Source of the DNA: Peronospora farinosa
Taxonomy: Eukaryota; Oomycota; Peronosporomycetes; Peronosporales; Peronosporaceae
DNA: 64,000 bases
NCBI GenBank assembly: GCA_947646735.1
Contig: CANTFK010000580.1
Coordinates: 62,001 to 126,000 of the forward strand
Reading direction: 5' to 3'
Made by a program: the position numbers and the translations under genes. Each line of letters begins with the position of its first letter. Positions within the stretch are counted from its first letter, which is position 1. Under the pieces are notes generated by a model. It had not been told where the DNA came from and did no database searches. It was given only the letters and a program-made list of their open reading frames with translations. Shown here piece by piece: positions 3,147 to 64,000 of this stretch.

Positions 3147-4560
3147 TAAGATCCGTTGTTCTTTATGTCAACCGCTGATCATCCCCAAACTGATGGCCAA
3201 ACAGAACGTGCAAATCGAGTTGTGGCGGATGTGTTGCGTACAGTAGCGACTCCCAAAGAATGGGGCAAGCAATTGCCATTCGTGGAGTTCGCTATTAATA
3301 ACAGTGTTCACGCCAGTACGGGTGAAACACCGTTTTACATTAACGGACTGCGTCATCCTCGAACGCCAGTCTCGTTTGTACGCAGCCCGAGTCTTAGTGT
3401 GGGAGGGCCCCTCACTTCGCTTGGTGCGAATGCCAAAGAGGGCCAAGGTTGCCCTAGCGACACTGCTAATTTAGCCGTGGTCACGGCACCTATAGGTGTC
3501 ACAAAAGAGGCACGGCAAGCAATGCCAGTGCTCCTTGACGATGACACTATCTTGTTATCAACAGCGTCGACCCATGACCGACCTCTTGGGGGGGTGATCT
3601 GGATGCTAAAAGCGTGAGCGAAGCTCAGCGCTTCGTGGATGAGCGATTAGCCATCACACGTAAAGTCCGTGAAGCGATGTAAAGCGCACAGGACAAGCAA
3701 AAATGATATGCAAACCAGCATGGTCGCAAAAACAATGAACACTTAAGTGTTGGGTACAAAGTGCTATTAAGTACTGCTACCCTACCTAAACATGCAATTT
3801 CTGTACTACCTGGTGGTACTACTAAGCTATTGCCCCGGTTCATTGGGCCCTTTACAGTGGTTAAAGAAGTTGGAGACCTAAAGTATAGGCTCACTCTCCC
3901 ACCGTATATGAAGACGCACCCCGTATTTTTACGTGGGTCGTCTAAAACGGTATGTTGATCCAGAAGAGATCACATATTCACATCGGTCTAACGAGACCGA
4001 TGGTGACGTCGACTGTGAGTCGAGTGTCGCGACCGATCAGGCGACGAGGAAGCCGAGAGGCTTTCCGTATATGAACGAGGCGATAGAGGACTCGTTGAAC
4101 GAGGAGGACTCCGCGCTTGACGCGGGTCTCTCATCACCAGTCGCTCTAACAGATCCAACCGAAGCTTCAGGCGGTCATACCCTGACGGTACTTCGCCCTC
4201 ACATCGTGCAGATCCGAAGTCAGTCGCGAGAATTGACTAGAAAGATCATTCACCTGCCTCTTCAGCGCAGCGTTCTCACAGCCTGCGACTGAACAGCAGC
4301 AGGGTAGGCAGCCACGAGTAGGTGGGTGTAATCGCCACTCATATTGGGCGCCACTTGTGTTGGTGGACACGGAAGGGAACACGCGCTCCCTTGTTGGAAG
4401 GCTGTTGACCCACCGGTTTGTGAAGCGAAAGCTCCAAATCTTTGTCCAGTGGAAGGTTTATCCAACGAGATTTGACTCATGGAAGCTTATTGACGCCTTG
4501 TGCGTCGACGTGCCTAGGCTGGTGGCTGCTTATGTAAAGAAGCACCAGCTGACGTTTATT
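3147..4560 (+). pseudogene. Chromovirus integrase end and degenerate chromodomain (element A)
   Basis: The left part carries the end of a Ty3/gypsy integrase core, with ADHPQTDGQTERANRV holding the catalytic Glu, then FAINNSVHASTGETPFY. After stops near 3617 and 3680 the C-terminal integrase module follows (about 3755-3955: LLPRFIGPFTVVKE, YRLTLPPYMKTHPVF). A linker and a chromodomain-like segment lie at about 4395-4545 (VQWKVYPTRFDSWK). In that segment the usual WKGY Gly is Val and the usual WEP Glu is Lys. The zinc finger and the first two catalytic Asp are missing, so this is a 5'-truncated dead copy. It reads towards a polypurine tract and LTR at 5473-6092, confirming the orientation. Confidence 0.85.
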
Positions 4561-5430
4561 GCTAGGTCCGGATGGACTAGCAGAAGAAGCGTAGCGAGAA
4601 TCAATTGGGGGTCGCTTACCAACCAAGATATCATTCGCACGCTTCATGGCGAAGCTGATTCGCTGAGACCGCTGTTTAGTTGCATCTTCATGCAAGTTAA
4701 CACGGCGCCGGAGTTCAGCTTCATATTCGTCGGCTGTTTCGTTAGAACGCAGCACGACTGGAATTGGGAAAGCACGATCAAGTGCTTTGCCCTTCTTTTT
4801 ACACAAAGGGTAGACGCTAAAAAATTATGAGCGTCAATAGTGACACGCTGCAAAAGCGCTGCACTAGACCCATCCGAGTTTATCCACTCGGATGAGGTAG
4901 CATTGGTGATAAGCTACCACTCACGCAGCCGCCATCGCCACGACGGGCTAGTGAGGCTGAACGTGTACTCGGTGGAGCTTTAAGCTCACACTCACCTGAA
5001 TCTGACTCTCCGATATGGATTGTCAAGACATGAGCCTGAGGAGTCACATCAGATTGAGTCGCGACTGCTTCTTTCGAAGTAGCGCGCTCAGTCTTAGTGC
5101 TGCGCTCGTAGACGCAGGCGACAAGGTATTACCTTCACTTGCAGGAAGCATAGAAGCTTCCTCAAGTACGGGTGCCTCACATGATGGAAACATATTTCCC
5201 ATCAACGCGCTTTGCTCATCTCCACTTTGGGGTGATGGCAATGGCGTGCTCTCATTGTAGTCTACAATGAGAGATGGATCTTCATCCACATTATGGTGAG
5301 ATGGAAGTTTCGACTCAGTGCCTGAAGCACTTTGCGACGGCTGCGAATTATCACGGCGCGTGCGCTTAGTGCTGGACTGCATGGGCGCCTTTGCAGGCGA
5401 TCCATCAGCCTTACCACGTTTCGGTGGCAT
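4477..5430 (-). pseudogene. Antisense ORF of chromovirus element A, broken
   Basis: An ATG at 5430, only 57 bp from the 3' LTR, opens a 128-residue basic, Ser/Pro-rich N terminus (5430-5044). It starts MPPKRGKADGSPAKAP and then becomes acidic. After stops the same strand is open again at 4806-4477, with a charged helical segment. The layout (antisense, between integrase and 3' LTR, starting next to the polypurine tract) is the same as at 2248-2556, and is resembled at 61725-63956. No domain is recognised. The basic Ser/Lys start could be nuclear or nucleic-acid binding, but that is inference. The region from 4477 to 4560 overlaps the chromodomain end on the other strand. Confidence 0.45.
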
Positions 5431-5486: not shown

Positions 5487-6092
5487 TGTAATGGGCTCAA
5501 CGATACACGTATCCGTTAAGTATGCGATACTTAACGGGCAGGTCTCAAAAGGTACGTAAGTACTTAAGACCTTTCGCTCGGGTGAGACACACCATGTGTC
5601 ACACCCTTGCGTATGTGATATACACTAGGTGTATTCACATTGATGGGGATGACGCCCAGCTGGGACTAGGCGCCATCAAATGACGTCAGTCAGTTCCGTC
5701 ATTGAGCGAGCTTGAATATTTTAAGCTCTCACGTTGGGAGCGCATCTATAGAGATGGCACCCATCATTACATATTCACCAATCAGTAGTTAGATTTATAT
5801 TTATTTAAAATCTATTAAATATAAATCAGTCTTGAATTTACTTAAACAAACGCACCACGCACGAGAAGTTGCAAAGCTTCTGCGTGACGTCGGTGCCTTC
5901 TTGTTAATAAGTTCGTTGCACTCTCGCTTAAGCGAGAGGCAACTGGTGGTACGACTGCTTAAGCAGTCGACCAACCTCCCAACCACCCTCGCTTGTGCAT
6001 AAGGTGTGTGCTCGTAGTACGAGGCAACTTCGTAGAAGTGCCCGTCTACACCTTGAATTTCCTAGCTTCTGTCTTAGCGTCTCCACTACACA
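5487..6092 (+). repeat. 3' LTR of chromovirus element A, about 600 bp
   Basis: It begins TGTAATGGGCTC after the polypurine tract. From about 5600 to 6090 it aligns by eye with 41070-41540, sharing for example CAATCAGTAGTTAGATTTAT versus AAATCAGTAGTTAGATTTAT and GAAGTGCCCGTCTACACC. The right boundary near CTCCACTACA is approximate. Confidence 0.75.
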
Positions 6093-6579: not shown

Positions 6580-8406
6580 ATGTTGCGACGTAGCGGCAGT
6601 TTGACGACACCTTGGGCAATAACTCTAAGTAGATCAGGTCATGTACGTTGTTGCCAGAGCCACAACTTCGACTCCAAGCTGTACGTTTGTCGTTTCCAAG
6701 TCGATCCATTTACACGTCATGCTGGAATTTTGTATACCTTTCGGTGATACTTTATTGTTCTTGCAGCCATGAGAAGCCCATTCCCATGGACCAAGTGCGC
6801 CAGATCGCCGAAACGGAGCCAACTCCTTTGTCGCTTCAGCAGATGCGCTCGTTCTCGGACGGATGTGCCAAGCTGCGGCTCGTGTCGGCCAAATTCCTGC
6901 ACAAGGAGCTGCAATCGCGTTTCGCTCGGTGAGACCCATAAACCAATGATCAAACACGGATTTAGCTGTGTTCTACTCAGTAAAACATAGTAGAACACAT
7001 GTTGTACTGTTTACGAAGAAGAGTGTGATAACTCTTACTGCATTTTGTGGTGATTTCTGGGGAGTGAACAGTGCTATTATCGAGCTGTCGGACTTGCCGC
7101 TAGGATTGAGCGACACGACGTCGATCCGTCAAGCAATCGACGTCTATTGTCGTGAGTTGCAGTGGCTTAACAGCATTAAACCTCCAATTTCCATTGTAAG
7201 GAAGAATACTATGATCACATACGTCATAATGACGATACGCTACTTGCTGACTGTTTGCTGGGATTGATGGGAGTAGGCAGATGACCGACAGTTTACGGAA
7301 ACGTTGCGTCACGCCAAAGCCCAAGGATCCAATCTAGTGCCGCTGATTTGTTACGGGCTGCAGCAGCTGAAAGGTACGGATCTCGGACACAGTGCACTGC
7401 AAATTGAGAGTGCCCAGGAGGACATCAAGGACCGACTGGACAAGTTTTTTCTGGGGCGTATTGGCATCCGCATGCTGATTGGGCAACATGTGGAGTCGCT
7501 CGAGCGCCCAGGAGGCCGTGTGCACCTTGTGAATGTGGAAGAAATCGTACGAGAGGCTTGTGACCGCGCCACAAACTTGTGTATACAGTACTCTGGTGTA
7601 GCACCACCTGTGGAGATCCATGCGACGGCGAGTGCTGGCACGCCGTTGATGTACGTGCGGTCACATCTACACCACATGGTATGCCGTCCATTGCATGCTT
7701 GGAAGTAATTGTGACTACGTCTAACACTGGGTGGTGGTCATTTTCTGGTGTAGGTCTTCGAGCTGGTGAAGAATGCCATGCGTGCGACGGTTGAGCACCA
7801 CAAAAAGCGGAGGCACAGAGCTCCCGGGGCACTCAACCAATTTAAGCAAACGATGAACTTAAACAGTCCGTCGTTGGGTTTTTTCCTGCCACCAGTATGT
7901 GTACCCAGACGAATGTATCTTGCATTGTGCTGCTAGGAACGATCGTTAATTGTTCAATATTACTTGTATGTATGGTTCAGATTGACGACGTATCGGGTGT
8001 CAAGATTTTCCCAGATGTTAGCAAGTACAAGCTCGGAGAGGGGCTCCCACCGGTGGAGATCGTGATCTGCGTGGGCAGTGAAGATCTGACCATCAAGGTG
8101 AGCGATGAAGGTGGAGGTGTTCCACGCAGTCGTTGGAACAAGCTGTGGCGCTACGACTACACTACAAGTCTTCCTTATCCGCCCATTGACTCCAATACCT
8201 ATCACAGTTATAGACAACATTATAGTGGGGGTGGCTACGGACTGCCCATGGCAAGGCTATTCGCGCGCTATTTCGGAGGTGAAGTCGCTTTTACTTCGCT
8301 TGAGGGATCCGGATCGACAGGGTTTATCCAGGCACACCGTTTGGGAACGAATGTGGAAGTCGTTCCTGGGCACGCGTCCTTTAACCTCCCGCCGCTTTAT
8401 TCGTAG
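6580..8406 (+). CDS. PDK: Mitochondrial pyruvate / branched-chain ketoacid dehydrogenase kinase
   Basis: This is a GHKL-fold protein kinase that phosphorylates the E1 subunit of mitochondrial 2-oxoacid dehydrogenase complexes and switches them off. Six exons give about 451 aa: 6580-6680, 6767-6928, 7072-7195, 7277-7678, 7754-7894, 7981-8406, all GT-AG with matching phases and introns of 75-143 bp. The N terminus (MLRRSGSLTTPWAITLSRSG) is Arg/Ser-rich and acid-free, as in mitochondrial presequences. The four-helix domain starts near TPLSLQQMRSF and includes FFLGRIGIRMLIGQH. The ATPase domain has the N-box HLHHMVFELVKNAM, the G1 box VSDEGGGV and the G2 loop SGGGYGLPMARL. Length and motif order fit the family. 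The exon 1/2 junction is the least certain because it was chosen to keep the frame. I cannot tell a PDK from a BCKDK by eye. Confidence 0.92.
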
Positions 8407-9422
8407 TCTTAACATGCTATATACCATTCCGAATTGGGAATAGATTATCCTGATGTGGACATGCATGTGCATTGTGAGTCAAACAGGTTTGTCGGATATA
8501 CGATGTTAAGACAAAAGCAACCGCAAGACTGTGACCATGCACTGGATAGCATCCCGTATCCTGTGGGTGCACGTGCACGCGTTTAAAGTAGTAAAATGTC
8601 ACGAAGCCATGAAATCGTGCTGTTAACATGAACGTTTAGACAACGACCCGACAGAAGTACTAGGTCAAGATCATGCCGAGTTGTAAGTTCGCTTTGTCGG
8701 TATCATTTGAGCTCTTTTCCTTCGTCTTGAGACCTTAAATGCAAGACTCAACCATATTTTGCAGCTTATTCGCCTCATGGTCACCGCGATTGTCGATAGC
8801 GAGCGATGTTCGAGTACGATTCCTCGTAGATAGCTTTGGGCGACAACGAAAACGTCAAAGCCGTCCAGAGTCTCGATACCTGGAGTCGGCGGTGGCACGC
8901 ACGATTTCGCTCGACATCAGCCACTTTTTTGCTGACTTGTTGTCGTTGGACAGCAGCACGCGTGCTGAAGACCAATAATGGCGTGTTCCTTGATGATTAT
9001 TGTAATCACCCTACTAATGAAAAGGCTGGTAGATGCCGAGGAGGTCTGGCTGCAACATGCACCGAAAGGGTATTCGTGGCCAACATTTGATCACGTCAAA
9101 GAATCTCACAAAACTTCACCTACCCAATAACTTTTGTTAATACTTACATGTAGCTGCAATGCAATAGCTACTGCACATATGTTACATCATCTCCATAAAT
9201 ATGTAAAATGCATACCGCATCTAGTTCGTATACACCTTTTTTCTTCCATTGGATGCACAATTGTGTCACCAGATCCCGCACAGCAAGGTCACGCAAGAGA
9301 CATTCTCATAATGTACATGTATGGTGATCGTAGTTCTTTAGCTCACAAGATACTACTCAATATGGAGGATAATCAATTCCATTCCCACGAAATCCAGAGT
9401 GAAGATTCAAGATGACGGTTCT
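8407..9422. other. Intergenic stretch, no gene supported
   Basis: Short overlapping ORFs on both strands have no recognisable domain. A possible mini-exon with a GTAAGT donor near 8683 and a TTTTGCAG acceptor near 8764 leads into a frame that stops within about 70 bases. It may be a relic. The segment 9100-9300 is AT-rich and featureless to me. Confidence 0.4.
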
Positions 9423-42831: not shown

Positions 42832-43634
42832 GTGGACCACATACATGGAATGGATCGATATTATGGGATTATACTTGGTTATATTATGGGCGCGATCAGT
42901 TTATTTGATCGATCAATTGATCGCATATGATCGTTACAGCCCAAGTAAAGATTACGACTACATGTCGACCTTTTATGCTCGATCATGATTGATCGGGACC
43001 GCGATTGAAGCAATAGGCAGGGATATAATTTCGATCAGATCAGCATGGATATATTTGCGATCACGATCGACAAGGGCGATCACGATTGACGAATGCGATC
43101 ACGATCGACAAATGCGATCACGATTGACGAATGCGATCACGATCGACAAATGCTATTACGATCGACAAATGCGATCACGATCGACGAATGCGATCACGAT
43201 CGACGAATGCGATCACGATCGACGAATGCGATCACGATCGACAAGGGCGATCACGATCGACAAGGGCGATCACGATCGACAAATGCGATCACGATCTACG
43301 AATGCGATCACGATCGATAAGGGCGATCACGATCGACAAGGGCGATCACGATCGATAAGGGCGATCACGATCGACAAGGGCGATCACGATTGACGAATGC
43401 GATCACGATTGAAGAATGCGAATATGATCGACATCGTAAACAAGAGTGATATCGCAGCTATATTGGAGTGGGCCACATACCTAGATCTGATGTTTTCGGA
43501 AAGGACGACGCGGCACAGAAGAACCTGGTATACAGATAGACAGTATAGTAGGTTTAGGTTTTGATTGGTTAACTTTAAACAGACTTTCTTTTATTTATAA
43601 TTACGCACGCAGACTTCTCTTCCGGGTGGTATAT
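42832..43634 (+). repeat. 5' LTR of element B, approximate limits
   Basis: The region from 43441 matches the left copy at 1590-1790 closely. The start is placed near TGTGGACCACATAC, which resembles TGTGGATCACGTCAC at about 1261. The end is placed before the putative primer-binding site at 43637. Both limits are estimates. Confidence 0.45.
43057..43436 (+). repeat. Minisatellite, about 20 units of 19 bp, in the LTR of element B
   Basis: Units of GCGATCACGATCGACAAAT with variants (GACGAAT, GACAAGG, GATAAGG) run head to tail. Each unit has two GATC sites. As 19 is not a multiple of three and the unit lacks stops, all three forward frames are open; the resulting His/Asp/Arg/Ser-rich ORFs are not proteins. 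Confidence 0.95.
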
Positions 43635-52139: not shown

Positions 52140-52600
52140 ATCGAGAATCGCTGATCAGATTTAATCGATCAAAGTTTCACGGTCAAAGGAAGAAAAGAAA
52201 ATTTGGATGCGATCCAATTGAAATACAAAGATTATAATTATACGATAGGATCGCATTTAACAAGCTACATCAGAGATCCTTACTCACGCGCTACAAACTT
52301 GTCGGCCAGGCGGGCAATGGAATATCCGGGATGATCGTCAATCGAAGAGCGAAATTGGTTTCGCCAGGGTTCCGTCGAGTTGCTCATGGAATACGCGGTG
52401 ACCAAATTGGGAATGTTGATTTGCTTTGTGGCCAATCCTGGATACTACAATTTTACCTCGTTCGGACGAGGAAAGTGAAGGAATATGGGGTCCAACAGGA
52501 TGTCGAGGTCGCAGGGGCCGTCGGTTATACCTTGATTATACCTTGAAGAATCTTTAGCAACACTTTTTTCCATCTGGAGCCAGCTCTTGATCGCCGTTGG
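52140..52600 (-). pseudogene. Remnant of the antisense region downstream of element B pol
   Basis: A stretch near 52490-52525 (AGGATGTCGAGGTCGCAG) matches the antisense region of C near 62105-62125 (AGAATGTCGAGGTCACAG) at the same place downstream of integrase. Most of the antisense ORF is too decayed to translate. Beyond about 52600 the sequence belongs to another fragment. Confidence 0.4.
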
Positions 52601-52849
52601 CTTCGCTCCTTAGCAAAAGTGGCTAGCGAGGATCAAATCGACGCATCTTGATGAAAATCGGAAGAAAATGGGTCGCTTCCCACAGGGCTTGACGGTGACG
52701 GAGTTCAAAGGCATGATACATAGAAATTGATTATGAGTACCAACCGGTTGGCCGGCACGAAATTGGATCGACCATGGAATCGTATATGTGGTGAAGTGCC
52801 AGGGAAAGTTGGAATATAAGGGAAATGGAACAGAGAGCAAGAGAATTTC

Positions 52850-53240
52850 TGTTCACTTCCCCGAGGGAGTGACCACGACCCGGCCTCGCGGATTTACAAC
52901 CACACACCAGGCACCGCCTTATTAAGAATATAAGGACCCAGACGTGCGGAGCCAGCAAAGGCCCCAGGCCCCGGAAACAGGTTCCAGGGTACCGGGGTGG
53001 AAACGCATTCCCCCCCGACCAACGATCGCGCATATCAGCGGTACTATCATGTTTAGCCCAAAAAAAATTAATGAAGGGAGGCCGACCAACATCGCCAGGC
53101 AGTAGACCAGCGACCCGGCCCATCATCAGCGACCCCAAACACGAGATGTGCATATTGCGGGTCCAAGAATCTGAATTGCTGGAAAAGATTGACCTGTGAC
53201 CGCTGTGGAAGGAAGGGTCATCCATCAGATCGCTGCCTGT
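52850..53240 (+). pseudogene. gag zinc-knuckle fragment of a C-type element
   Basis: At about 53137-53240 the + strand encodes CAYCGSKNLNCWKRLTCDRC and GRKGHPSDRCL, clearly like CTHCGSRK ... DCWKRLVCECCGKKVHQADHC of element C at 56405-56510. Before it is Pro/Arg/Asp-rich gag linker text. It is cut off at about 53240 by AT-rich mitochondrial-like DNA. Confidence 0.75.
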
Positions 53241-53492
53241 TAATAAAATTTATTTTTAAAATAAGATTAATATTATTTAAATTAATTTGATAATATATTA
53301 TTTTATAAAAATGTATTCTTTAAGATATTTTAAATAAATAATAAAAAAATTAATTGATAATATGTTATTACAAGCTTCTAAATTTTTAGGTGCAGGATTA
53401 GCGACTTTAGGATTAATTGGTGCTGGTATTGGTATCGGTAACGTTTTTGGTTCTTTAAACAAATCACCTTTAACTATTTTTATTTTTTTTTG
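53241..53492 (+). other. atp9: Mitochondrial DNA insertion (NUMT) with a 5' atp9 fragment
   Basis: An abrupt block of very AT-rich DNA holds, from the ATG at 53362, MLLQASKFLGAGLATLGLIG followed by AGIGIGNVFGSL, the start of ATP synthase subunit c (atp9), which oomycetes encode in mitochondria. After GSL the reading departs from the family and stops at 53491-53493, so the gene is truncated after about 32 residues. The 120 bp before the ATG is typical mitochondrial spacer. Flanks are GC-rich retroelement sequence. It is either a nuclear insertion of mitochondrial DNA or an assembly chimera. Confidence 0.88.
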
Positions 53493-53496
53493 ATTT

Positions 53497-53765
53497 GGGG
53501 CCCAGGGGTATTAGGGCCCAATGTCCGAGGGTGCAGAATCGGTACACAGAATATCGAAAAGTACAGAAAGTACGGGTACCAAGGAGCCAATTCTTCTTCC
53601 AAGAGTCGACACGGGGCACTACCCAGATCAAAGGGTTAAGGTTAGGCAAGAAAAGCATACAGAGAATAAGATAAATAAACACACTCGAATTTGCATTACA
53701 CGTGGCAGCTTTAAGCGCCCTTTTTAAGCTTCTCCGTCGCTTCACCTCTTCCGGGCGGGATACCC
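53497..53765 (+). repeat. 5' LTR of element C, approximate limits
   Basis: Its right end CTTCCGGGCGGGATACCCTT matches the corresponding region of B and the left copy, and precedes a primer-binding-like TGGCCCCCCGACG at 53768. The left end near the NUMT is unclear. No 3' copy appears before the window ends, so element C continues beyond 64 kb. Confidence 0.45.
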
Positions 53766-53767
53766 TT

Positions 53768-54168
53768 TGGCCCCCCGACGTCCAGCAGGTGTTAAACGGC
53801 TCAAGCAACGCAAGTTGAGCCTCAGGATAGTTGGCCTGAGGTGCCAAGTAAGTGTCAAGACTCTACGACCCGCTACAGGAAGCGGTTACCCTACGGGGGA
53901 GAACACAAAGGGGTCCAAGGACCAAGAAACCCGGTCCCAAGTGAAGTATATCCACTCGGGGATCACCAAGTCCAAGTCTTATACAAAGACCAAGTCTTTA
54001 AGTCTTTTGCGTCAACCGAGGAGCAAGACCAGCCAAGCCGACGGGTACACAAGGTGAGACCCAAGACCAACACGACACGGTATCGGGGTACCCCCTCCGT
54101 AAGTCGGCAGTCCGGCGCTGTGTGTGTTTGTGGATCTCCTACGTTGTTTGAGAATCCACTCCACCACA
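53768..54168 (+). other. Primer-binding-like site and leader of element C
   Basis: The leader begins TGGCCCCCCGACG and keeps the shared block CCGACGGGTACACAAGGTGAG near 54039 (20 of its bases also occur at 2145 and, with one change, 44007), ending at the gag ATG at 54169. Confidence 0.5.
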
Positions 54169-58042: not shown

Positions 58043-59690
58043 ATGTTGGAAGACATCCAGATCCCAGACCCCGGTGATACCCCAAAAGAGGAGGTAGACC
58101 GCCTCCGTCAGATTATATGGAGAAAACGACATTTGCTGATGGGAAAAGGTAACGCATTACCCCCGGTGGCTCGAGGAGCGGTGTGCGACATTGATGTTGG
58201 GAACGCACGGCCAATCGCCCAACGGGTACGGAAGGTGGCCCCTCAATTTAGGGAGAAGCTGGCAGACCTGATAAAAGGCCTCTTGTCCTCCAAGATAATC
58301 CAGCATTCCACCTCCCCATGGGCGAGTCCAATTGTAATCATTGTCAAGAAGAGTGGGGTGGATATAAGGCTGTGCATTGACTACCGGATGGTGAATGACT
58401 TAAACACGGCTTATGGTGTATCCTATGCCTCTCGTGAATGAGTTGTTGGAAGACCTAGATAAGGCCCTGTGGTACTGCTCACTGGATATGGCTAGCGGTT
58501 TTTGGGTGGTCAGCATGACTGAACGAGCTCGTTTAATCTCGGCGTTTGTAACTCCGCTCGGATTGTTTGAGTGGAGACGAATGCCGTTTGGACTGGAGAA
58601 TGCACCACAGATCTATCAGAGATTGTTGGATAATGCTCTGTATGGATTCCTAACGATTTCCTCGAAGCCCAACACTGAGAAACAGGTAGACCTGTTCGAA
58701 ATAGGTCAACCTGAAACGGACCACGAGGAGTCCCTATTAGGACGCCTGTCTTATATCGATGATATATTGGTAACCTCTGGATCATGGGACCTATGCTTAA
58801 AAGTGGAAAGACTATTGGAGGTTTGTGATAAGTGGAATTTATCGATCAGCGCGATCAAAATTCATGGGGATGTAAAAAAGTTGATTATCTTGGGCATCGA
58901 GTATCCGTGGAGGGGTTTGGAGGCCCATCCTAAGAATCTTCAGTCATTGGTGGACTTACCGCTGCCCACCACCCTAAAAGCCATGCAGTCGTTTCTTGGA
59001 AGTCTCAATTACTATAGTCGGTTCCTAAAATACTACGCGATTTATGCGTCCATATTGTACGAGCTAAGAGAAGTGGATTATCACGTGTTACGACGCCGGA
59101 TGAGTGGGACTGAGGAAACCCAGAGGTGTGACCAGAAGGAAGACCGATGGACTCGGGTGCAGGTGGCCTTTGCGATATTGAAGAATAAGATCGCCACCGC
59201 CCCAATCCTCCGTCATTTTGATCCTAGCCGAGAACCGATCGTCAACGTTTATGCCAGTGAGTGGGCCATCTCGGCATCCCTGGTGCAGGAATATGAAGGG
59301 GTGTACATGCCGGTAACTTTCACGAGTCGAACTTTGAAGCCAAACGAGATCAACTATGGGCTGGTGGACAAGGAAGTGTTGGCTCTATTGCGAATACTAG
59401 ACCTTTGCTACACGTCAGTGGTCACCCGACCTATCAAGGTCTTGACCCGACACTCAACACTGGCGTGGTTAGTCCGGTCACCGGATCTACAAGGTCGCCT
59501 TGGAAACTGGGCTGCACTCCTGTCTCAATGGACGTTAGAAGTGGTTAAGTGCAAGCGGGGCGAGGATGAAATACTGGGGACATTGGCAGCCAGCATAACT
59601 TCTCGCGAAATCGTGGACTCCATCTTGTCTTCAATTACTCGTAGGAAACACCCCCGCCAAACTTTTCACGGTGGTCCCCCCTACGGTTGA
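58043..59690 (+). pseudogene. Reverse transcriptase and degenerate RNase H of element C
   Basis: RT motifs: FREKLADLIKGLLSSKII, SPWASPIVIIVKKSG, RLCIDYRMVNDL, a frameshift at about 58405, LWYCSLDMASGFWVVSM, RMPFGLENAPQIYQRLLDNA, SYIDDILVTSG (catalytic YIDD), and MQSFLGSLNYYSRFL. The connected RNase H has NVYASEWAISASLVQEYEG where the catalytic Asp is expected, then TFTSRTLKPNEINYGLVDKE and HSTLAWLV, so this RNase H is probably inactive and replaced by the following domain. It ends near SITRRKHPRQTF. Confidence 0.87.
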
Positions 59691-60120
59691 GCCCGAGGAA
59701 AGCCTCTATGTGGTCAGTTTTGATGGATCTTCACGAGTTAAGCGTGTAGGAGTGGCCTGCAGTGCTATTGTGTGGCAAATCCCGGAATGGACGGTGGTCG
59801 CCGCTGCTTCCCGATATTTGACTGAAGCGACAGTAAATGAGGCAGAGTATGAAGGCCTATTGTTGGACTTCCTTCTACTGGAGAACCTGGAGCGTAGACG
59901 TCTGGTGGTATGTGGAGATTCTAACCGGGTCGTGCGACAGATGCGAGGAGAAATCGAGTGTAAGGCGCAGGGTCTGACAGCACGACGGGCGAAGGCCCTG
60001 GAAAAAACTCAGGTCCTGGCCCGTTCACGAGTTTCTACAAATGAAGCGCGAATGGAACCAAAGTGCAGACCGACTTGCTAACGTGGCTTTGCACCAGCAA
60101 CAGGGTGTCGATATAGTACC
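59680..60120 (+). pseudogene. Second (additional) RNase H of element C
   Basis: A separate RNase H fold follows RT: VVSFDGSSRVKRVGVACSAI (first Asp), ATVNEAEYEGLLLDFLLL (Glu), VVCGDSNRVVRQMRGEIECK (Asp) and, after a frameshift near 60035, KREWNQSADRLANVALHQQ (last Asp). Oomycete Ty3/gypsy elements with such an extra, archaeal-like RNase H have been described. It would degrade the RNA of the RNA-DNA hybrid in place of the degenerate RT-linked domain. Confidence 0.8.
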
Positions 60121-60225
60121 GGAAGAAGAGTTCAAGGACCTTGAAGCAATTAACCGTCTACCTATCCAAAGACCAGAACCATGCATTGCGAGTTACAGCT
60201 GTTACGAGATCCCGGGCCCTATCCA

Positions 60226-60263
60226 GAATGCTCCTGCAAGACTTTCGTCTTGCAGGAGCATTC
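60226..60263. repeat. Perfect 17-bp hairpin with 4-nt loop inside pol of element C
   Basis: GAATGCTCCTGCAAGAC at 60226-60242 and its exact reverse complement at 60247-60263 flank TTTC. It lies in the linker between the second RNase H and integrase and is not seen at the matching place in B. Confidence 0.95.
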
Positions 60264-60429
60264 AGGAGGAAGTAGTGCAACGGATAAGGATCGAACGAAC
60301 TGCAGTAGCCAAAGATGAAGAGATGTGGATACGTGATTTAAAAGTATACATACGGGGTAACTGGAGTAGTTTATCGGCAGAGGTGGCATTTACGTGTGGA
60401 AAGATTGAGATGAACTACGCTTTAAATGA

Positions 60430-61478
60430 TGACGATCCTCTTCTGTAATGCCCTTACCAGGAAACAGTAGACGGACCGTGATGGGTTGATTCGGCTGGTT
60501 ATACCGGAAAGTCTACAACAAGACTTTCTACGCCACTACCATACGAGTCTAGAAGGGGGACACCAGGGAATTGGCCGTACATACCAACGGATACGGAAAC
60601 ATTTCTATTGGAAAGGCTTATTCCGGAGTGTTCAGCGCTATGTCGGCACTTGCGTAGACTGCGAGACTGGCAAAGGTGGCCCCACCTTACGAGGGAGAAG
60701 TCCAGGGAACATTCAAGCTACCCGCCCGTTCCAAGTTATCGCGATGAACCACATCCCATCTTTGCCCAAATCGTTCAAGGGTAATACCGAGCTGTTGATT
60801 TGGGTGGACCTGTTTACGGGATATGTGATTGCCAAGGCTAGCTCGTCGAGGTCGGCCCAAACCGTGGCAGAAGGTTACGAAGAGTGCGTATTCCGTAGGT
60901 TTGGGGACAGTGAGGCGATCCGTCACGACATAGAACCCAGTTTCATGTCAGCTTTCTTTCGTGCTTTAAACCGCATAATTGGGCAGAAACAGCGGGCGAC
61001 TATGGCGTATCGACCACAGGCCAATGGCACAGCAGAGAGAATGGTACAGACCATTACACGGTCCATCAAAATGTATGTGTCAGAGGTAGATCAGAAGGAC
61101 TGGGATGCCTATGCAGAAAGGCTCACTTTCGCGTTGAATACGGCCCAGGACCGGATCCGAAAGGAAACGCCATTTTTCTTGGTACATGGATGGGACACCC
61201 GAAGTACTCTAGAAGCCACCATACCGTTAGGCAGCACGAAGCGGCGTGAATGTGAGCCCCGTCGATGGCGATATAGCGTACAACGTCAGTATCGCAGAGC
61301 GAGAGAACAAGACAACGAATTATTACGATCTGCGATGGAAAGTCGGACCCAGGCCCACAATGAGGAAGTGGTTGATGGTCATATTGAGGTGGATTCCCAG
61401 TCTGGTTATACTTGGACCGGGTCAAGGAGGGGTATGCTCGAAAGCTGGCACATCTATGGCATGGGCCGTTCCGAGTGA
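60430..61478 (+). pseudogene. Integrase of element C
   Basis: Zinc finger HYHTSLEGGHQGIGRTYQRI with C-x2-C in GTCVDCETGK (HHCC type), then core AMNHIPSLPKSF, FRRFGDSEAIRHDIEPSFMS and AYRPQANGTAERMVQTI. The first catalytic Asp of the D,D-E triad is Asn here (element B keeps Asp at that place), while the second Asp and the Glu are present. The frame is open for 330 codons but changes near 61240 in the C-terminal part. As read, the enzyme should be inactive unless the Asn is a sequencing error. Confidence 0.87.
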
Positions 61479-61642
61479 GAGAACTGGTGGGTGACTATGC
61501 CGTTCGTTTAGATATCAGTGGATATCCAGACCCGTCATGGGTGGATGAGGTGGACCTCAACTATGGGGGATTGCTTAGGGACTATGAGAGCAGGCAGGCT
61601 ACTCGGAACCGATTCGAGGCAATGCAGAGTCATGAAGAGTAG
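61412..61642 (+). pseudogene. Integrase C-terminal module fused to a chromodomain stump, element C
   Basis: The open frame has RKLAHLWHGPFRVRELVGDY (GPF/Y module) followed directly by YPDPSWVDEVDLNYGGLL, which corresponds to the later half of the chromodomain-like segment of B (YDDPSWIDEADLNCNAFL). About 200 bp present in B between these two parts are missing, in frame. Confidence 0.7.
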
Positions 61643-62714
61643 TGGGGAGAGTTCATCTTGGGAAGGCCAAGATGATGCAAGAAGGAGGCGGTATGTGTCA
61701 TACATTTACAAAGGGGTCAAGTTATTATATTCGAGAATGCGACAGCACAAAAGAGATTAAGAAGTATTGTGAAAGGCCCAGAGTTTCAGGGCACCGGGGT
61801 ACCGGGGCCCCGGGGTATAGGCCCAAAGAAAAGGAACGTGAAGTTACGGGAAAAGCGTTGGAGCAGAAAGCTAGCTGACTAGACATTTTATGCATCGTTG
61901 GCCGGGATAAATTTGCCGGAGAGACGAGGGACCTGGAAGGCGGGGTGTTCATGAATGTTCTTGCTATATAACACGCGCCAGGGGCAGTGTCGTCTGCGGT
62001 CTGCAAAGCCCTCAACAAGTCCAACTGATGATCCTCCGTGGTGACGATTGGGTACCAGACGGTCAGCTGACGGTTCAGGATCATGGGCTGGAAGTAGGGG
62101 TCAAGAAGAATGTCGAGGTCACAGTGACCGGCCTTCATCCCTTCCAGGACCTTCTCAAGTACGTCCATCCAAGCCCTCACGGCCTTGGCCCGCCGTTTCT
62201 TCCTCGCATTGAAAAGCCGAGAGGCGTATTGGCTCTTTATACGGAGTTCGGAGAAAAGAAGAAGTCGGTGTCGGTCTTCCCATAGACTCTGGCGTGACGC
62301 ATCGATGTACGTATCATGGAGCTTCACGAGGTCACTGAACCAGCCGGACACTGGAAAGAAATAGGGGTTACGGTCACGACCCCCTGGGCCCAAGGACGTG
62401 AGTCCATCAGAAGCTGAAGTTGAGAGTCCTTCATGAGGCCTTCGCTCCAGATTGGGGGCTTCGGGGCTTCTGGTCATCAGAAGCACCCACCCAAGACAGT
62501 GGAAGCGATACCTTGGACAAAAGATCCTCTGGCGTCAGCTGAGTAATAACGAGGGCTCCTACCTGGGAAATCGACCAGGGGGCAACGTCTTCCGCGGCGA
62601 ACGTGCTGGGTTTCGCATAACCAGGAAGGGAAGAGCCGTGGATGTTACGGTCGGGGGAATCATCACTGGCGGGAACCTGGCTGGCAGGACCCTCAGGTGT
62701 TGGTGCCGGATCCT

Positions 62715-62995
62715 CGCTGCTAGGACTCTTGCCACCGGGACCCTCAGATGTGGGTGCGGGAACCTTGCGGCTGGAACCCTTGGAGGGTGGTGCTGGACCC
62801 TTGCCGCTGGAACCCTTGGATGGTGGTGCGAGACTATTGCGGCTGGAACCCTTGGAGGGTGGTGCTGGACCCTTGCCGCTGGAACCCTTGGAGGGTGGTG
62901 CGGGACCCTTGCCACTGGAACCCTTGGAGGGTGGTACTGGACCCTTGCCGCTGGAACCCTTGGGTGGTGGTGCTGGACCCTTGTCGGCGGGGCCC
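62715..62995. repeat. 36-bp tandem repeat array, about 7 units
   Basis: A GC-rich 36-bp unit (core GGTGGTGCTGGACCCTTGCC) repeats with few changes; period seen from the spacing of 62779, 62815 and 62851. On the minus strand it encodes a 12-residue Lys/Gly/Ser/Pro repeat. ORFs on the + strand here are shadows. Confidence 0.9.
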
Positions 62996-63236
62996 TTGCG
63001 GCGAAAACTTTAGGCTGGTGGCTTCCTCTTAGCGTGGCTAGACTCGTCATATTTAGTCTCAGAGTCTGGTTCAAACATTTCCAATAACTCGTCGGAGTAC
63101 GCCGTTCGAGCCTTCTTTTTCCTTGACGCCCGAGAAGCTGCGTGGAGGTGCGAGGGGATGGGGACTTTGTAGATTGAGCGGAATTCTTGGACTTGGCCTC
63201 ATTCGATAGGTCTATGACCTCGGTGCCGACCTCTGA

Positions 63237-63579
63237 TGTAATGGGCTACATTACACATATAGCATTAACACAAATAAACAATTACATATGTAGGCAGGTG
63301 CTGGGCCCGAATAGCGGGCACAGCGTGGTAATTTATTATTGGTTTATTATTGGGCCTAAAAGTCCCCAATATGGACCAATGATAAATCAACCTGAAATTG
63401 TGTGGTTCCCGAAAGGCGGGAACACTGTCGTATTTATTACGACTAAAATCTTCGTAATTAGTACGAATTAAAACCAAAATAAAAATCAGAGTTAAATTTA
63501 CTTAATACCTAATACTCGGGCTTGAGTCTTCCTCAAGCGCACGTGTAAGCTAGTGACGGTACGTTCTAGCCCCGTTACA
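63237..63579 (+). repeat. Solo LTR, 343 bp, with 5-bp target duplication
   Basis: TGTAATGGGC...CCCGTTACA is flanked by TCTGA on both sides (63232-63236 and 63580-63584). It is nearly identical to 2570-2911. No internal element sequence lies beside it, so it arose by LTR-LTR recombination or is a solo insertion. It splits the antisense ORF of element C. Confidence 0.93.
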
Positions 63580-64000
63580 TCTGAAGTAGAAAGTACAGGG
63601 CCGGAGCGACGACAGAAAGCCCGCGACCTGGCCATTGCGGCGAATATCGAGTCGTCACTACTGCTATCCTCGGCCTCAGATGACCCCGGGGCATGATTGG
63701 CTTTCCGCTTCTTCGGCTTAAGGGGAGACCGAACCTTGGATGAAGGCGAACGTGACATTTTCGTCGTTCTGGGACTTCGGGCCTTGGTCGTGGCTGGAGT
63801 CGATTTTGCCGCCGTGCCTCGAGCAACCGTTAGCTGCTTCTGCAGCTGGTCACGTCCCCGGAGGAGGGTCTTCTCGCGGCTCTTGTAGTTGGAAATCTCC
63901 TTCTGGAGTACCAACACTTGTTTGGACAGTTCTTGATGACTGCGAAGTGCGTCCAACTTGGACTCCAGCGACCTAATCTCAGCCGAAGAACTTTTGACAG

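Follow-up and report, generated by a model that had tools for sequence, protein, structure and literature searches.

What are the long open reading frames (ORFs) that run antisense to the other genes of several long terminal repeat (LTR) retrotransposons in the oomycete Peronospora farinosa, close to the 3′ LTR? The question is raised by a 64,000-nucleotide stretch of contig CANTFK010000580.1 (assembly GCA_947646735.1, forward-strand positions 62,001 to 126,000), hereafter the window, in which a first-pass annotation had noticed such frames in more than one element family. The frames are almost certainly coding genes. Judged from sequence, they are probably accessory genes of Ty3/gypsy elements that are expressed in antisense from the 3′ LTR, and they may regulate the element in trans. 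In one family, called C here, the start codon is very probably not present in one piece in the DNA and would be made by removal of an antisense intron.

Antisense genes at five places in the window

Three different elements, D, A and A2, have their 3′ ends in the left 6 kb of the window (A2 is the element called A in the first-pass annotation). Element B occupies the region from ∼43.5 kb to the window end, with element C inserted into the antisense gene of B. Searches with tblastn using relatives from the same genome find coding remains at all five places at which antisense frames had been annotated:

1–896, − strand: D antisense gene, N-terminal part; ATG at 894–896, LTR starting at 982 (tblastn with D copy L040 and position of the LTR motif)
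2269–2556, − strand: A antisense gene, N-terminal piece; ATG at 2556, LTR at 2570 (86% identity to A copy L038 over 105 amino acids)
4036–5430, − strand: A2 antisense gene, frameshifted; ATG at 5430, LTR at 5487 (tblastn with A2 copy L039, residues 20–485 in pieces)
52283–52775, − strand: B antisense gene, C-terminal remnant (50–63% identity to D pieces, tblastn)
61888–64000, − strand: C antisense gene, window copy, broken by frameshifts and a solo LTR (tblastn with C copy L013)

The extents required correction. The D frame before the left LTR is present but covers positions 1–896 rather than 1–1010. The A start does adjoin the LTR at 2570, with a gap of 13 bp instead of 14 bp. The A2 frame starts beside its LTR at 5430 as annotated, but it extends over 4036–5430 instead of 4477–5430 and is separated from the LTR by 56 bp, not 57 bp. 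The trace seen in B near 52500 is the C-terminal remnant, which is cut by the 5′ LTR of element C at 52787. A single C antisense frame at 61725–63956 does not hold, since it contains 11 stops when read in this way; the conserved protein end lies at ∼61890, and positions 61725–61890 form an out-of-frame tail. The D fragment at 1–543 occurs again with 100% identity at G000:C160:52572-53114, ∼9.4 kb away on the same contig, as a recent duplication or an assembly duplicate.

Conservation of the frames in genomic copies

The window copies are broken pieces, and the families are high-copy in the genome, which was searched as 46.85 Mb in 274 contigs. For the C fragment, the best 150 of 646 candidates were scored; among these, at least 21 copies (window counted) span at least residues 3–127 at 83% identity or more, and a second set matches at roughly 43–52% identity. 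Many short matches to the tail of the C query represent the family A LTR and not the gene, because a family A LTR has invaded the window copy. At least 155 matches were obtained for D, with copies often counted twice, and at least 150 each for A and A2. Eighteen C copies (L011–L028, 10 kb each) and single copies of D, A and A2 (∼9.5 kb) were taken as relatives. The C copies were gathered with the antisense gene as the query, so counts out of 18 are not shares among all C elements.

Antisense frames occupy the same position and orientation, between integrase and the 3′ LTR, in 18/18 C copies and in D, A and A2; the layout proposed for these oomycete elements is found, with long frames, elsewhere in the genome. 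From stop to stop, the longest antisense frame per C copy measures 334–798 amino acids and reaches 700 in half of the copies (9/18), and the single D, A and A2 copies have frames of 948, 502 and 487 amino acids, respectively. For each of five intact relatives, the longest frame in the interval from integrase to LTR (487–900 amino acids) exceeds the chance maxima of 289–316 amino acids from 200 first-order Markov resamplings per region, in 5/5 regions. Most of pol is also retained in a single frame of 1784–1840 amino acids in C copies L014, L022 and L024. In L022 and L040, pol stops short of the antisense gene. The A and A2 antisense frames overlap the pol end, with the chromodomain DNA opposite antisense residues 322–385 (A) and 318–367 (A2). 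The DNA that encodes a chromodomain on one strand and antisense protein on the other lies at 6875–7063 of L038 and at 6959–7105 of L039 (oriented).

Purifying selection, which had been put forward as a check on these frames, is detected. The ratio of nonsynonymous to synonymous substitution rates (dN/dS) is 0.22–0.27 for C and 0.39–0.60 for A, A2 and D over at least 134 codons. The C values come from 12/12 inter-subfamily pairs of 637–720 codons, at a dS of 1.7–2.0 that is near saturation, and rest on 7/18 copies, one of which, L018, has ATA in place of ATG. By part (three pairs), the ratio is 0.17–0.20 in the C-terminal domain and 0.28–0.35 in the coiled coil, and the repeat-rich middle is saturated and yields no ratio. 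The remaining five frames of the C alignments give 0.39–1.84. Within type 2, one of the two C subfamilies, the pooled ratio of nonsynonymous to synonymous polymorphism (pN/pS) is 0.24 (n = 3 copies). The truncated A window copy gives 0.80 and 0.87 in two 111-codon dN/dS comparisons. Pairs of A, A2 or D with at most 80 codons, and identical pairs, provide no usable ratio.

A start codon probably made by an intron

The five C copies inspected contain no ATG in the stretch from the LTR edge to the antisense frame. Instead, a splice donor (GTAAGT in type 1 and GTAGGT in type 2) is located 74–75 nt from the LTR edge in 18/18 copies and opens an intron of 62–63 nt. Removal of this intron would join A to TG, and the resulting codon reads ATG in 16/18 copies. 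Genome-wide searches with exact patterns for the two types identify 15 and 34 introns, which have A before and TG after in 14 and 31 cases, respectively (45/49), and a reversed-pattern control over the whole genome identifies none. Between L013 and L022, the intron is identical at 33/63 positions, with TTCACCAACTCAC, which we take to be a plausible branch region, unchanged within it, and exon 1 is identical at 62/75 positions. In D, the ATG is unbroken and lies 85 bp from the LTR, near the position of the exon 1 end in C; C may have gained the intron or D may have lost it.

In the proposed mechanism, antisense RNA would start in the 3′ LTR. In the DNA, 13–138 bp separate the start codons from the 3′ LTR, and a start of the RNA inside the LTR is suggested by family A, which leaves only 13 bp between LTR and ATG. 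In C, a 63-nt intron located 75 nt from the LTR edge would be spliced from the antisense RNA, and A and TG would become the start codon. The intron should survive transposition because the template that is copied is the sense RNA, where the intron is reversed and would stay unspliced. The protein could be produced only from RNA that has undergone transcription and splicing; it would be a nuclear factor acting in trans on the transcription or the integration of the element, like HBZ for human T-cell leukaemia virus type 1 (HTLV-1).

Several observations weigh against this account. The spliced start codon is ATA in L018 and L020 (2/18), and the acceptor AG is lost in L017 (1/18). The count of 45/49 is an incomplete census because exact patterns miss introns with altered signals, and four of the 49 introns belong to a deletion derivative with a broken gene on contig C253. 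A full-length open frame from the spliced ATG, of 681–784 amino acids, exists in only 6/18 copies, plus one copy that reads ATA. The frame is shifted in 7/18 copies by the end of a C-run located ∼40 codons past the spliced start. The N-terminus ahead of the second methionine is the least constrained part with a usable ratio (dN/dS 0.49–0.57), and pooled pN/pS inside type 1 is 0.55 (n = 4 copies).

The C-run consists of six C in 9/18 copies and of five, seven, eight or nine in the rest. The frameshifted copies include L021 and L024, which otherwise match L022 at 98–100% identity in integrase and in the antisense gene. Assembly error, slippage in reverse transcription, use of the second methionine and an on/off switch are all possible explanations.

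The same copies bear on the strongest competing explanation, in which the gene is real but translation begins at the second methionine (METLA, residue 63 of the spliced L013 frame) and the intron only trims the leader. All seven shifted copies have the shift ahead of METLA, and two of them, L021 and L024, retain frames of 759 and 724 amino acids downstream; METLA is conserved in both C subfamilies, and dN/dS is lower downstream of it. However, the residues that precede METLA align between the subfamilies at a ratio still below 1, relatives have coding sequence upstream of it, and the A|TG joint is kept in nearly all of the introns recovered genome-wide. We consider translation from METLA unlikely, and formation of the C start codon by splicing remains the favored explanation.

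Two further observations concern the sequence around this start. The 75-nt stretch from the LTR edge to the donor (L022 8604–8690, oriented) is 83% identical across the C subfamilies, and both of its flanks are far more diverged. An inverted repeat, GGTCTT...AAGACC, lies within this stretch, which may act as a cis signal on one strand or the other. The C253 array, with four introns, was considered as a domesticated gene and rejected: L041 (G000:C253:149000-158500), which covers three of these introns, is a tandem array of a deletion derivative that keeps the LTR, the gag start and fragments of the antisense gene.

Antisense proteins

The C, B and D proteins have a common C-terminal domain with 24 invariant columns, including GHCDxDxxLD, in 11/11 sequences, among them proteins of Peronospora matthiolae, Phytophthora rubi and Phytophthora megakarya. 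The A protein is rich in arginine–serine (RS) repeats and contains four conserved cysteines, three invariant and one nearly so in 14 sequences; its structural model has a long C-terminal helix. Matches to the A protein occur in Phytophthora capsici, P. rubi, P. idaei, P. infestans and P. cactorum and in Peronospora matthiolae and Peronospora destructor. The A2 protein matches proteins of Peronospora effusa and Peronospora farinosa, and a Peronospora effusa protein reaches 90% identity to one of the antisense proteins. Profile comparison gave no sign of a common ancestry of the A, A2 and C/D proteins, with hhalign probabilities of 3.3% (A–A2), 7.2% (C/D–A2) and 0.6% (C/D–A). By sequence comparison, at least three groups of antisense proteins with no detectable relation to each other coexist in one genome. 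Their occurrence at a single position suggests that the position answers a shared need. A 586-residue predicted protein, P0007, has reverse transcriptase (RT) and RNase H fused on one strand to the antisense C-terminal domain, and an inverted or chimaeric locus is its likely source.

All five antisense proteins contain basic clusters, and coiled-coil similarity is observed in the N-terminal half. In a Pfam search, none of the five reached a curated cut-off. Neither PF04195 (TRP28) nor the bZIP family is among their Pfam matches to an E value of 0.1, and the coiled coil is of a general kind. No match to a known fold or domain backs a regulator role, which tells against the proposed function. 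With their coiled coil, basic clusters and lack of a membrane segment, the proteins nevertheless have the look of nuclear proteins. They may be nuclear regulators of the element, as HBZ is for HTLV-1, a possibility that we rate somewhat short of even.

A structural role, as a second particle protein or an envelope-like protein, is less likely still than translation from METLA. The helical C-terminal domain, the coiled coil and the basic tails would also fit a particle protein, as would the cysteine cluster of the A protein. However, a sense gag is already present in these elements (a Pfam match in L038; an ORF and repeat family D6 in the window), and no Pfam match to gag or envelope was obtained for the antisense proteins. 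No 19-residue window with a hydropathy above 1.6, and hence no membrane segment, is found in any of the five. Membership in the class of envelope-like sense aORFs was rejected on this last result, together with the antisense orientation of the frames.

The antisense RNA rather than the protein could be the functional product, pairing with sense RNA and exerting control through small RNAs. This possibility has been raised for plant elements in the available text of PMC7264820, and small RNAs of Phytophthora infestans map to both strands of Gypsy elements according to that of PMC3522703. It does not predict constraint at the protein level or protein similarity across genera, although RNA and protein could both act, and as a sufficient explanation it is very improbable. 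Chance frames, or a foreign transposon nested in reverse, have a negligible probability and are ruled out: the window is rich in nested elements and part of the frame is a tandem repeat, but the frames keep their place and orientation in all C copies and also in D and B, exceed all resamplings in length and are under selection.

Pol and kinship of the elements

The pol regions of C and D contain two RNase H domains, matched by RT_RNaseH and RVT_3 of Pfam in both L022 and L040. In the native RNase H, DAS is changed to YAS in C and D, and TDH is changed to TRH in C; the latter pattern was not found in D. The added RNase H of C and D keeps FDGS, EAEY, GDSNL and WNxxAD. On the residue roles that we assume for these motifs, the native copy is degraded and the added copy is intact. 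A chromodomain follows integrase, with 33.0 bits in L022 (cut-off 25.1) and 21.3 bits, below the cut-off, in L040. By sequence, the C and D pol thus appear to have the structural characters of Chronos elements: a dual RNase H, a degraded native copy and a chromodomain. Family A has one RNase H domain, which keeps DAS and TDH, and a chromodomain, and the A2 pieces, which span part of pol, likewise contain one RNase H and a chromodomain.

The two C subfamilies are mosaics. Their RT–RNase H is common, with 88–100% identity to both references in 18/18 copies, and the right part of the LTR is common in 16/18, with no match in L020 and L025. Three parts set them apart: integrase, at 78–80% identity between types; the antisense gene; and the left LTR part, which is unmatched across types in 18/18. 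Oriented L014 and L022 are nearly identical from gag to RNase H, diverge from ∼4350 and return to high identity in the LTR at ∼8910–9000. The comparison shows that the C 3′ module moved as one piece, and a single template switch explains the entire mosaic if the break in the LTR is the U3/R boundary. Joint inheritance of integrase, antisense gene and LTR left part in 18/18 copies was considered as a sign of functional coupling and set aside, because one template switch yields it mechanically.

Element C in the window

The window copy of C comprises the following further features:

52787–54168, + strand: element C 5′ LTR, with ∼480 bp extra in the middle (52999–53496); 99% match in two blocks to the L009 LTR
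58413–61639, + strand: element C pol (RT, RNase H, integrase, chromodomain) in several frames (tblastn with L022 pol)
62687–63034, − strand: 36-bp tandem repeats in the C antisense gene, seven register copies encoding 12-residue Gly/Ser/Lys/Pro units
63237–63579, no strand assigned: solo LTR of family A, 343 bp, inside the C antisense gene; 98% identical to 2567–2866 over 300 nt

Two of the pol frames contain RVT_1, RT_RNaseH and Integrase_H2C2 (Pfam). The antisense gene is recovered by tblastn with L013 in pieces at 63998–63576, 63245–63144, 63162–62455, 62461–62354, 62369–61941 and 61983–61891. Residues 7–173 (N-terminal), the intron and the 3′ LTR lie past the window end and are seen in L009. 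The solo LTR is flanked by a 5-bp target duplication, TCTGA, at 63232–63236 and 63580–63584, and the last residues of the frame ending at 63498 are LTR-derived because this LTR interrupts the gene. Near the left end of element B, positions 43000–43490 contain a 19-bp tandem repeat array of 17 register copies.

Comparison with known antisense genes

Plant elements of the Tat lineage have a pol with a dual RNase H. The parallel with plant gypsy elements drawn in the first-pass annotation is correct and already published (PMC7264820, available text). The characters of the aORF-3R class are found here, namely an antisense frame in the interval from pol to the 3′ LTR (in A and A2 also overlapping the pol end) and conservation of the protein. 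The plant aORFs of Grande (gene23), RIRE2 and Retand are alike: the gene23 protein is nuclear and the Retand antisense proteins are thought to bind DNA, as stated in the available portions of PMC7264820 and PMC11963269. In plants, such frames are a general feature of Retand, 97% of whose clusters include TRP28 (PMC11963269, same portion). In contrast, the five oomycete proteins have no PF04195 match, and the protein searches gave no hint of plant relatives. The start-making intron of C is a further difference; the word 'intron' is absent from the available text of PMC11963269.

A fungal counterpart is brtn, reportedly described by Zhao in 2011 as an additional antisense gene of the Boty LTR elements in Botrytis. 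Likened by description only, it resembles the oomycete genes in its antisense orientation and in belonging to an LTR element whose host is a filamentous plant parasite. HBZ of HTLV-1 and APH-2 of HTLV-2 are antisense, spliced and start in the 3′ LTR, and HBZ, a leucine-zipper protein, regulates its own LTR (PMC3185765, available text). The conserved intron signals suggest that the C antisense RNA may likewise be spliced. The HBZ ATG lies whole in exon 1 within the LTR (PMC3185765, same text), whereas in C the start codon would be split by the intron and exon 1 extends out of the LTR.

The C and D pol resemble those of Chronos elements of oomycetes (Peronosporales), which have a dual RNase H with a degraded native copy, integrase and a chromodomain, according to the available text of PMC5348765. 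The main text of that paper does not contain the word antisense, and its structure legend names no antisense gene. A dual RNase H has arisen convergently in Tat, Chronos, Archon and retroviruses (PMC10508981, available text). Setting antisense genes beside this list is our own inference. Tentatively, antisense regulator genes may recur in LTR elements with a second RNase H (HTLV, plant Tat and oomycete Chronos-type), and in C the regulator would be under splicing control, made only from host-transcribed and spliced RNA and never from packaged sense RNA or cDNA. The association would be a tendency and not a rule, because A, A2 and Boty have antisense genes with no evidence of a second RNase H.

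Literature searches, read as listed titles and abstract openings, with further papers beyond the listing in some of them and most subscription journals outside their coverage, showed no publication on antisense genes of oomycete elements. As a kind, antisense genes in LTR elements are already known; within the literature searched, the oomycete lineage, the intron-made start codon and three unrelated antisense groups in one genome are new. Relative to the first-pass annotation, what is added is the intron-made start codon, the presence of three mutually unrelated protein groups and the setting of a dual RNase H. The junction of A to TG would be specific to spliced antisense RNA of C, as neither sense RNA nor genomic DNA can yield it. 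Antisense genes of LTR elements form a known yet unexplained class, in which oomycetes now join plants, a fungus and the human leukaemia viruses, and oomycetes are thereby added to the comparison of retroviruses with plant elements.
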